A DNA stretch of 64,000 bases from Mesorhizobium sp. SOD10 (GTDB lineage Bacteria > Pseudomonadota > Alphaproteobacteria > Rhizobiales > Rhizobiaceae). The stretch covers positions 186,001-250,000 of the forward strand of contig CCNA01000002.1 of the NCBI GenBank assembly GCA_000824805.1. The letters run 5' to 3'. The notes under the pieces are model-generated. The model was not told the origin of the DNA and made no database searches. It saw nothing but the letters and a program-made list of their open reading frames with translations. This document shows, one piece after another, positions 32,511 through 61,028 of this stretch (positions are counted from its first letter, which is position 1; each line of letters begins with the position of its first letter). Made by a program: the position numbers and the translations under genes.

Positions 32511-32691
32511 GAGCGAACTGGCCCAAGAAGATTGGCATTGAAAGGTGTGTTTCGCAGTGCAACATTAGGCCTTGGCCCAATCTGGCACGCGCCTCCTAAA
32601 ATGCGGTGGCAAGTTCGCGCATTCCGGTGATTTCGACGTGTCGTTTGCAGGAATTGCCTTGCCGGCATGAGGAACATAAAGGAGTTTGGGA

Positions 32692-34020
32692 ATGAGCGAA
32701 GCTGCGACAAAATTGGAACCTGGCGGCAAGGCGCACGAGTCGACCGCCAGGCTCGAACTCGCCGGCAAGACGCATGAGTTCAAGGTGCGAAGCGGGTCGA
32801 CCGGGCCTGACGTCATCGATATCGGCGCGCTCTACAGCACCACCGGCGCCTTCACCTACGATCCGGGCTTCACGTCGACGGCGAGCTGCGAGTCGGCAAT
32901 CACCTTCATCGACGGCGATGCCGGCATCCTGCTGCATCGCGGCTATCCGATCGACCAGCTTGCCGAACATGGCGACTTCCTCGAGGTCTGCTATCTGCTG
33001 CTCTACGGTGAATTGCCGACCAAGGCGCAGAAGGAGGATTTCGATTATCGCGTGACGCGCCACACCATGGTGCACGAGCAGATGTCGCGCTTCTTCACCG
33101 GCTTCCGTCGCGACGCCCATCCGATGGCCGTGATGTGCGGCGTGGTCGGCGCGCTGTCGGCCTTCTATCACGACTCGACCGATATCTCGGATCCGTATCA
33201 GCGCATGGTCGCCTCGATGCGCCTGATCGCCAAGATGCCGACCATCGCGGCGATGGCCTACAAATACCATATCGGCCAGCCCTTCATTTATCCGAAGAAC
33301 GATCTCGGCTTCGCGGCCAATTTCCTGCACATGTGCTTTGCCGTGCCGTGCGAGGAGTACAAGATCAATCCGGTGCTGGCGCGCGCGATGGAGCGCATCT
33401 TCATCCTCCACGCCGACCATGAGCAGAACGCCTCGACCTCGACAGTTCGTCTCGCCGGCTCTTCCGGAGCCAATCCGTTCGCCTGCATCGCCGCCGGCAT
33501 CGCCTGTCTTTGGGGCCCGGCGCATGGCGGCGCCAACGAAGCCGCGCTGAACATGCTGGGCGAGATCGGCCATGTCGACCACATCCCGGAGTTCATTGCC
33601 CGCGCCAAGGACAAGAACGACCCGTTCCGGCTGATGGGCTTCGGCCATCGCGTCTACAAGAACTACGATCCGCGCGCCAAGATCATGCAGAAGACCGCGC
33701 ATGAGGTGCTGGGCGAGCTCGGCATCAAGGACGATCCGCTGCTCGACATCGCGATGGAGCTTGAGAAGATCGCGCTGACCGACGAATATTTCATCGCCAA
33801 GAAGCTCTATCCAAATGTCGATTTCTATTCCGGCATCACGCTGAAGGCGCTCGGCTTCCCCACCACCATGTTCACCGTGCTGTTCGCGGTCGCGCGCACC
33901 GTCGGCTGGATCGCCCAGTGGAAGGAAATGATCGAGGACCCGCACCAGAAGATCGGCCGCCCGCGCCAGCTCTACACCGGCGCCACGGAACGCGATTACG
34001 TGCCGATCGCAAAGAGATAG
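32692..34020 (+). CDS. gltA: Citrate synthase
   Basis: First TCA-cycle enzyme, condensing acetyl-CoA and oxaloacetate; 442 aa, hexameric type by length. AAAGGAG precedes the ATG at 32692. Active-site regions: [19 protein letters not shown], the catalytic His in [13 protein letters not shown], and [13 protein letters not shown] with the second His. The stop is followed directly by the second heptamer inverted repeat, which separates it from convergent lpxB. Confidence 0.98.
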
Positions 34021-58920: not shown

Positions 58921-58957
58921 AAAAAACCGGCCGCGTTTCCGCGACCGGGTCCTTTTT
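58921..58957 (-). terminator. Rho-independent terminator of the phasin gene
   Basis: An imperfect stem CCGG-c-CGCG/CGCG-a-CCGG around TTTC, followed on the minus strand by TTTTTT. It lies about 38 bp past the phasin stop. Confidence 0.75.
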
Positions 58958-58994: not shown

Positions 58995-59324
58995 TTACTT
59001 CGCCTTGGCGACCACCGATTCGAACGGCTTGTAGGCTTCCTTGGCGAGCTCGGCATAGAGGTTGCCGATCTTGCTGGCCTCGGCCACGAAGCTCTCATAG
59101 CTCTGCTTGGCGTAATCGGTCTGGATCTCGATGGCCTTCTCGATCGACTTGGCCGAGAACAGCTTCTCGAAGGCGGCGCTGCCGGCCTCGAAGCTCTTCT
59201 TGGTGTATTCGCCGGCTTCGGTGGCGATTGCCTGCGCGCCGTTGGTGAGCGAGGCAAAGCTCTTCAGCCCGGTGTCGGCGAGCTCCTTGCCGTATTTGGT
59301 GAAGTCCTCGTAGGTCTGGGTCAT
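58995..59324 (-). CDS. Phasin family protein
   Basis: Polyhydroxyalkanoate granule-coating protein of 109 aa, mostly helical. The ATG at 59324 (AAGGGAA upstream) gives MTQTYEDFTKYGKELADTGL; Phasin_2 features include the amphipathic stretch AFEKLFSAKSIEKAIEIQTD and SYESFVAEASKIGNLYAELA. Two near-identical palindromes 22 bp apart lie 47-83 bp upstream, the probable operators of the PHA-responsive repressor PhaR. Confidence 0.9.
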   Translation of the reverse strand: MTQTYEDFTKYGKELADTGLKSFASLTNGAQAIATEAGEYTKKSFEAGSAAFEKLFSAKSIEKAIEIQTDYAKQSYESFVAEASKIGNLYAELAKEAYKPFESVVAKAK

Positions 59325-59370: not shown

Positions 59371-59407
59371 TTGTGCAATGCACCTCAATATATTGTGCAA
59401 TGCACAA
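59371..59407. promoter_or_regulatory. Tandem palindromes upstream of phasin (candidate PhaR operators)
   Basis: TTGTGCAATGCAC occurs at 59371-59383 and again at 59393, where it extends to the full palindrome TTGTGCAATGCACAA (59393-59407). The copies start exactly 22 bp apart, two helical turns, so a repressor would bind the same face twice. TGC/GCA half-sites are known for PhaR in Paracoccus and Rhodobacter. Confidence 0.65.
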
Positions 59408-59506
59408 AAGTCAAGAATCCCTTGGCGCGCAGGGCCTCCAGCGCCGGCGTCCAGTAAAATTCGATTAAAGAGAAACTCGATTTGCCGAAAAATGGTGAAC
59501 GCGGCG

Positions 59507-59612: not shown

Positions 59613-61028
59613 GTGCGTCAGGCGTTGTCGGGCTTCGTCTCCAAATCCTCATTCTCCTTCAAGGCGCTCATGGTTGCCGCGCTCGCGTTGACGATTGTCG
59701 CCGCCGATGTCGCGTCGGCTCTTGCCGCAAAGTCCGCGGCCATCGTCGTCGATGCCAAGACCGGCAAGGTGCTTTACTCGGCCGACGCCAACGGCCGGCG
59801 CTATCCGGCCTCGCTGACCAAGATGATGACGCTTTACCTCACCTTCGAGGCGCTGGCGAAAGGCAGGATCAGCAAGAACACGCCGGTGCCGTTCTCGGCG
59901 CATGCCGCGTCCGAGCCGCCGACCAAGCTCGGCGTGCGCGCCGGCGGCTCGGTCCCGGTCGAGACCGCGATCCTATCGATGGTGACGAAGTCGGCCAACG
60001 ACTCGGCGACCGCGCTGGGCGAGCTGCTCGGCGGCACCGAGGATAATTTCGCCCGCATGATGACGGCCAAGGCGCGCCAGCTCGGCATGAACGGCACCGT
60101 CTTCCGCAACGCCAACGGCCTGCCCGACCCGGGCCAGTTCACCACGGCGCACGACATGGCGATGCTGGGCATCGCGCTGCGCGAGCACTTCCCGCAATAT
60201 TACGGCTATTTCTCGCAGCGCTCGTTCCTGTATGGCCGCCAGCGCATCAACGGCCACAACCGCTTGCTTGGCCGCATCAAGGGCGTCGACGGCATCAAGA
60301 CCGGCTATACCCGCGCCTCGGGCTATAATCTCGTCTCCTCCGTCGCCGATGGCGACCGCCGCCTCGTCGCGGTGGTGATGGGCGGCACTTCCGGCCGCAG
60401 CCGCGACAACCAGATGGCCACGCTGATCAACACTTATCTGCCGCGTGCCTCGACGCGCGGCGGCGGCGATCTCATCGCCAAGGGCAACGACAATCAGATC
60501 AAGACGTTGGCCAAGGTCTTCTTGCCCAAGCATGACGCGCCGACGCCGGACGCCAAGCCGGCAACGGACGACACCGTCGTTGCCTCAGCCGATGATGTCC
60601 AGGACGATACCCAGCAGGTCGCGGAAGAGACCAAGCCGGTGCTCAAGGCCCGGAAAGTCAAGACTGTCGCGATAGCAGCCATGGCGCCGGCCCCCAAATC
60701 CGAGGACACCAGCGTCGCCGCCTATGCCGAACCGGCGCCTGCCGCGCCCGCGATCGATCCGGTCAAGACGTCGTCGCTGCCGTCGGGCTGGGTGGTCCAG
60801 GTCGCTTCCTCGCCCACGAAGTCGGGGGCTCAGAGCCTGCTCGACCAGACCGCCAAGCAGGCGCCGAAGATCCTGGCCGACGCTTCCGGCTTCACCGTCG
60901 CCTTCGACAAGAACGGCACCACCTACTACCGCGCCCGCTTCGGCGGCTTCGGCTCGAAGGACGCCGCCTGGAAGGCCTGCGATGCGCTGAAGCGTAAGAA
61001 AATCTCGTGCTACGCCGTCGAGCAGTAG
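59613..61028 (+). CDS. D-alanyl-D-alanine carboxypeptidase with C-terminal SPOR domain
   Basis: Periplasmic penicillin-binding protein of 471 aa trimming peptidoglycan stem peptides. A signal peptide (about residues 15-39) precedes the S11 peptidase domain with Ser67-Leu-Thr-Lys70, Ser127-Ala-Asn129 and Lys229-Thr-Gly231. A low-complexity Ala/Pro/Lys linker spans about residues 300-385, then a SPOR domain (GWVVQVASSPTKSGAQSLLD to KKISCYAVEQ) that should bind denuded glycans and target the protein to the septum. It starts at GTG 59613. DacC-like. Confidence 0.93.
   Translation: MRQALSGFVSKSSFSFKALMVAALALTIVAADVASALAAKSAAIVVDAKTGKVLYSADANGRRYPASLTKMMTLYLTFEALAKGRISKNTPVPFSAHAASEPPTKLGVRAGGSVPVETAILSMVTKSANDSATALGELLGGTEDNFARMMTAKARQLGMNGTVFRNANGLPDPGQFTTAHDMAMLGIALREHFPQYYGYFSQRSFLYGRQRINGHNRLLGRIKGVDGIKTGYTRASGYNLVSSVADGDRRLVAVVMGGTSGRSRDNQMATLINTYLPRASTRGGGDLIAKGNDNQIKTLAKVFLPKHDAPTPDAKPATDDTVVASADDVQDDTQQVAEETKPVLKARKVKTVAIAAMAPAPKSEDTSVAAYAEPAPAAPAIDPVKTSSLPSGWVVQVASSPTKSGAQSLLDQTAKQAPKILADASGFTVAFDKNGTTYYRARFGGFGSKDAAWKACDALKRKKISCYAVEQ

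Follow-up and report, generated by a model that had tools for sequence, protein, structure and literature searches.

The promoter of a phasin gene in Mesorhizobium sp. SOD10 carries two copies of a short palindromic sequence, a strong one in the spacer between the −35 and −10 elements and a weaker one over the predicted transcription start, and we are highly confident that PhaR (AniA), a repressor that senses PHB, uses both as its operators. The window analysed here is a stretch of 64,000 nucleotides of this genome. What we observe directly is the sequence of the sites, their promoter geometry and conservation, the presence of phaR in the genome and the agreement with PhaR sites in the literature; PhaR binding, repression and release by PHB in Mesorhizobium sp. 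SOD10 would follow by analogy with Sinorhizobium meliloti, B. diazoefficiens and R. eutropha. An operator pair of this type is ordinary in kind, PhaR sites at phasin promoters having already been published, and as a prediction it is well supported in the present case. What is possibly new is the pair of promoter positions used in Mesorhizobium and a DUF1127-like gene with twin sites.

Two unequal palindromes in the phasin promoter

The interval 59371–59407, read directly from the window, is cttgtgcaatgcacctcaatatattgtgcaatgcacaaaag. The 13-mer TTGTGCAATGCAC starts at 59371 and again at 59393, an offset of exactly 22 bp, and the copy at 59393–59407 is extended to TTGTGCAATGCACAA, a perfect 15-bp palindrome whose arms of seven paired bases flank a single central base. 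An earlier note on this DNA had described these two copies, one of them extended to a full palindrome, and both the window sequence and a shuffle test bear the description out; it left unremarked that the sites are unequal, the first copy (59371) differing from the full palindrome at two of the 14 specified positions. When up to two mismatches are allowed, TTGTGCANTGCACAA matches the window twice, at the two copies, against a mean of 0.14 matches in shuffled sequence and with none of 100 shuffles reaching two. Chance is no explanation for the two copies. Across the 6.5-Mb genome the exact 13-mer occurs three times, twice at 59371 and 59393, and the reversed control pattern gives no occurrence.

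The features of the locus are, in order along the window:

58927..58948, minus strand: terminator-like hairpin 3' of the phasin gene (consensus scan; two in the region against 1.3 in shuffles, a weak signal)
58995..59324, minus strand: phasin gene, 109 aa, the putatively regulated gene (PF09361, 82.3 bits, E 3.2e-23)
59371..59385: weaker predicted PhaR operator, slot D, over the predicted start, minus-strand AGGTGCATTGCACAA (matrix score 13.1, third in the window)
59387..59392, minus strand: −10 element TATATT (promoter scan; TANNNT at a spacer of 16–18 in 78/80 loci, best 80 of 221)
59393..59407: strong predicted PhaR operator TTGTGCAATGCACAA, slot S, in the −35/−10 spacer (matrix score 26.7, best in the window; in 80/80 related loci, best 80 of 221)
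59409..59414, minus strand: −35 element TTGACT (promoter scan; TTGAC before the S site in 80/80 loci, best 80 of 221)
59613–61028, plus strand: divergent D-alanyl-D-alanine carboxypeptidase gene, sharing the intergenic region (PF00768)

The PF09361 match agrees with the earlier note in making the gene downstream of the repeats a phasin. The list of open reading frames has an upstream TTG (59378) for it; the ATG at 59324 agrees with its relatives. A promoter scan before the gene returned one candidate, TTGACT-16-TATATT (59414–59387), with 10 of 12 consensus matches, compared with 0.3 in shuffles. Along the minus strand the −35 element is followed by one base, the 15-bp palindrome, the −10 element, one more base and the weaker site. 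The perfect palindrome occupies the −35/−10 spacer, and the weaker copy overlaps the predicted start, whose position is deduced from the −10 element.

PhaR as the predicted binder

We scored sites with a symmetrised matrix made from 16 published S. meliloti PhaR (AniA) sites, taken from promoters listed as bound efficiently by PhaR in the accessible part of PMC12542648. The matrix omits four exoH sites from the published 'Efficient' rows, and its acyP row is the reverse of rpoE8. Its three top-scoring positions in the window are the palindrome (26.7), a site before gltA (16.4) and the weaker copy (13.1). The perfect palindrome also fits the YGCRNYGCR core of the S. meliloti PhaR consensus, given as WNWD2NYGCRNYGCRNH2WNW in the part of PMC12542648 available; the B. 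diazoefficiens consensus given in the corresponding part of PMC6201568 is TGCRNYGCASMA. The genome encodes one PhaR (PF07879, E 1.8e-29), and the protein combines PF07879 with PF05233.

The accessible text of both papers describes PhaR as binding such sites at phasin promoters and as being released by PHB in vitro (PMC12542648, PMC6201568). In S. meliloti, mutation of the palindromes abolished the shift, and either copy alone was enough for binding in EMSA, according to the same portion of PMC12542648. We infer repression by PhaR, and do so strongly, from the matrix ranks, the promoter geometry and the presence of the sites in 80 of 80 genus loci (best 80 of 221) and in 161 of 165 phasin regions. 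The earlier note had named PhaR as the most likely binder, which draws good support from the fit to the published consensus, the single phaR gene and the recurrence of a site at those 161 of 165 regions.

The published arrangements resemble the one found here and differ from it in detail. At S. meliloti phaP1 and phaP2 (PMC12542648, in part), as in Mesorhizobium, two palindromic PhaR sites with the YGCRNYGCR core lie near the −35 element; there they flank it, with starts 18 and 28 bp apart by coordinates, whereas here they lie in the spacer and on the predicted start, 22 bp apart. Likewise, B. diazoefficiens phaP1 has two PhaR boxes, footprinted in that organism, the proximal one in the spacer region, although its boxes flank the −35 element with 17 nt between them and, unlike here, no PhaR site at the start is reported in the accessible parts of PMC6201568 and PMC10888616. 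R. eutropha phaP1 (PMC12849132, in part) also has palindromic PhaR sites, centred on a single base, and one of them lies around the transcription start, but its partner site lies directly upstream of the −35 element, an arrangement that is the commonest outside the order in our survey. All three arrangements fit the promoter slots described below. A limited search of the accessible literature on PhaR phasin promoters did not find the spacer-plus-start arrangement. In the same literature listings, PMC9230146 mentions both DUF1127 and PhaR, and PMC6305480 and PMC2864759 each mention Mesorhizobium, phasin and PhaR together.

By analogy with these systems, when the cell holds little PHB, PhaR would sit on the palindrome in the −35/−10 spacer and on the weaker copy over the start, and the occupied operators would shut RNA polymerase out of the phasin promoter. 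Once PHB granules began to form, the polymer would draw PhaR away and the operators would empty, whereupon phasin would be made and would coat the granules.

Conservation of the sites in the genus and the class

The genus loci are the best 80 of 221 matches, of which 78 are titled Mesorhizobium and 78 are distinct over the last 100 bp. Among these best 80, the spacer site TTGTGC[AG]N[CT]GCACAA is present in all, starting 7 bp (65 loci) or 8 bp (15 loci) after the start of TTGAC. All of the same 80 have a further site 22 bp (61 loci), 21 (13), 23 (5) or 20 (1) past the spacer site; it was taken as the best site in the 15–30 bp range, with no score threshold, and scores from 3.9 to 18.0. Its TGCACAA end is kept in 80 of 80 (best 80 of 221), and its outer left arm is poorly kept.

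Beyond these loci, a site scoring at least 14 precedes 161 of 165 phasin regions (23 from the genus, 73 from the order and 69 from the class); 154 reach 18 and 142 reach 20, and 50 symmetric column permutations of the matrix reach an average of 0.82 of the 165 regions, 3 at maximum. The order set comprises 73 regions from 73 genomes among the matches listed, the main order search having matched 95 of 121 genomes, and the class set comprises 69 regions from 57 genomes, some with two, again among the matches listed, the class search having matched 89 of 142.

In a search of 41 relatives, phaR was found in 35 and this phasin in 34; every genome with the phasin also has phaR, one of them (G005) by a partial match. 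Four of the 165 phasin regions have no site at the threshold of 14, and phaR is present in two of the genomes concerned (G250, G052) and absent from the other two (G107, G059). This phaR-less control does not separate cleanly, as G107 has twin sites at another phasin. One locus (L057) is siteless only because the scan ended 650 bp short of the match; a separate scan saw a site (18.2) at the edge. Against the PhaR reading stands G250, which has phaR and a phasin but no site of at least 14 (best 8.2).

The twin sites of G107 (L084) score 20.8 and 18.8, are 59 bp apart and precede a phasin in a 290-contig draft with no PF07879 match. The draft may simply not include phaR, or the motif may be read by another protein.

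Promoter slots and the spacing of the sites

Measured from TTGAC, most sites start in one of three slots that appear to be anchored to the core promoter: U, upstream of the −35 element, at −24 to −20; S, in the spacer, at +7 to +12; and D, over the start, at +24 to +46. A few start at +1 or elsewhere, and lineages fill different pairs of slots. Genus regions carry S+D in 15 of 23 cases and S alone above a threshold of 13 in 8 of 23. Order regions with TTGAC (n = 62) carry mostly U+S (37), then U+S+D (8), U+D (5), S+D (4) and others (8), and class regions with TTGAC (n = 60) carry mostly U+D (37), then U (9), D (7) and others (7); these counts leave out ten order and six class regions that have sites but no TTGAC near.

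The earlier note had taken the 22-bp offset as a sign of helical phasing and cooperative binding. That selection fixed the spacing to let two PhaR oligomers bind cooperatively on one face of the helix is, in our judgement, unlikely, although several observations agree with it. The spacing stays within 20–23 bp in 80 of 80 loci (best 80 of 221); with turns computed at 10.5 bp, the mean spacing is 21.0 bp for S–D (n = 27, 2.00 turns) and 31.1 bp for U–S (n = 45, 2.97 turns); and the DUF1127-like gene described below keeps 20–21 bp in 23 of 23 loci. Help between sites has also been published: at B. diazoefficiens phaP1, a shift required at least 1 µM PhaR in place of 0.5 µM once one of the two boxes had been changed (accessible parts of PMC6201568 and PMC10888616), and a cooperative effect is reported, in the text available, for R. 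eutropha phaP3.

Against such selection, U–D pairs in the class have a mean spacing of 58.6 bp (n = 39, 5.58 turns; mode 56–59 bp), about half a turn out of phase. The phasing test compared spacing variance with that of shuffled pairs, and no test within a group was significant (S–D: order 0.077, genus 0.20; U–S: 0.26; U–D: order 0.11, class 0.82). Pooled S–D variance lies below that of shuffled pairs (P 0.002), a value that mixes lineages; all these P values are descriptive, as the sequences are related. Moreover, in S. meliloti the sites start 18 bp apart at phaP1 and 28 bp apart at phaP2 by their coordinates, and either copy alone sufficed in EMSA (PMC12542648, in part). As spacing follows the promoter slots and the pair met most often elsewhere in the class is about half a turn off, helical phasing is not a general rule; neither slot positions nor permutation within groups upheld it, and the earlier claim is unsupported as stated. 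Cooperative phasing is not needed to account for the 22 bp, while some help between the sites is possible.

Taking promoter slots as what sets the spacing, we lean slightly towards a wider picture, in which a three-slot grammar governs PhaR operators at alphaproteobacterial phasin promoters, lineages swap the two slots they fill but keep the regulatory link itself, Mesorhizobium uses the spacer and start positions, and the DUF1127-like gene and probably nitrate-assimilation genes are under PhaR as well.

PHA genes and other PhaR-like sites in the genome

The genome has one phaC and three phasins (this one and the C45 and C60 phasins), and phaR adjoins two genes resembling phaA and phaB by their translations. 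The earlier note had looked to other PHA genes for further copies of the motif, and this held in part. The C45 phasin has two strong sites (26.2 and 24.1) 19 bp apart and the phaR/phaAB intergenic region has one weak site (16.2), whereas the matrix scan of the fetched stretches found no site at phaC or at the C60 phasin. S. meliloti is described similarly in the accessible part of PMC12542648: phbC lacks a site there, and the motifs at phaR/phbAB stay below the threshold.

A second predicted target in the window is the citrate synthase gene:

32550..32564 (matrix match at 32547): predicted PhaR site TTTCGCAGTGCAACA, some 130 bp upstream of gltA (score 16.4, second in the window)
32692..34020, plus strand: gltA, citrate synthase (PF00285, E 1.6e-140)

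S. meliloti gltA is listed as a predicted direct PhaR target, with sites at 128 and 66 from the ATG (PMC12542648 Table 3, from the part available); these sites, predicted only and with binding untried in that study, stood outside the training set of the matrix.

Under a first-order Markov background, some one site of at least 20 is expected in 6.5 Mb; the fetched stretches contain 14 besides the window's own, but they were picked for a palindrome match and are thus not a random sample. The stretches scanned are part of the matches listed with up to two mismatches.

The DUF1127-like gene (PF06568, E 6.4e-4, 19.8 bits, under the curated cut-off of 23.3) has twin PhaR-like sites (L016 2955–2990; L216–L238). 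A search of 25 genus genomes gave 23 loci of this gene, and all 23 have the pair, spaced 21 bp apart in 21 loci and 20 bp in two. A perfect palindrome (L006 2978–2992; L191–L207) also lies behind a NasS-like gene, about 540–590 bp before a nitrate-transporter-like gene; the call as nitrate genes draws on what is encoded nearby, namely an ANTAR regulator and a binding protein of the NMT1 type. This palindrome is kept (17.7–27.2) in 14 of 17 loci, a count that leaves out eight further loci with distant transporters; of the remainder, one has no upstream sequence, one has weak sites elsewhere and one has none. NasT (ANTAR) hairpin sites have a six-base loop, which the odd-length centre of the nitrate-gene palindrome does not give, and a NasT hairpin is therefore less likely at this site.

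PhaR-like sites were also seen before an acyltransferase-3 gene (L018 2988–3002, 23.5), before an HlyD-type gene (L008 2982–2996, 22.6) and between a DeoR-type regulator and an aldolase-dehydrogenase gene that is RhaD-like by its domains (L019 3007–3021, 21.3). By gene type alone the HlyD-type case parallels blr7872 of B. diazoefficiens (PMC6201568, in part), and by domains alone the DeoR-type/RhaD-like case parallels rhaD/rhaR of S. meliloti (PMC12542648, in part).

Two further strong palindromes, L009 2992–3006 (24.0) and L010 3016–3030 (24.2), have no evident regulated gene, the latter lying behind its nearest gene.

Other readings of the sites

Palindromes of this type are common among repressors, and a repressor other than PhaR with a similar palindrome might use the sites. 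The twin sites of G107, a genome with no PF07879 match, would agree with this, as would the strong palindromes at genes with no obvious PHA link; those of L009 and L010, which stand before no evident gene with such a link, count against the PhaR reading. We nevertheless regard another repressor as very unlikely, as a matrix built from the PhaR sites of another genus finds phasin promoters class-wide and gltA besides.

Since the sites lie in an intergenic region shared with the divergent D-alanyl-D-alanine carboxypeptidase gene, they could in principle control that gene and not the phasin. This is highly improbable and was rejected on distance and conservation: the sites lie on the phasin −35/−10 elements and predicted start, at least 206 bp from the start codon of the carboxypeptidase gene, and phasin genes throughout the class are preceded by sites of the same kind.

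A chance repeat, or a hairpin acting in RNA, has a next to negligible claim, favoured by nothing beyond the ability of the palindrome to form a short hairpin and opposed by the shuffle and permutation tests and by conservation in 80 of 80 loci (best 80 of 221), and the hairpin role is rejected because the strong palindrome lies 5' of the predicted start and would thus not be transcribed from the phasin promoter.

Implications

With PhaR as the predicted binder, the PHB-titrated PhaR switch extends, by inference, to the phasin genes of Mesorhizobium, and a simpler rule takes the place of helical phasing, namely that the sites are anchored to the core promoter. The twin sites of the DUF1127-like gene offer a lead on a small protein family without an assigned function. 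If true, PhaR control of this gene and of the nitrate genes would connect PHB stores with nitrogen uptake and with a small protein that is so far uncharacterised.
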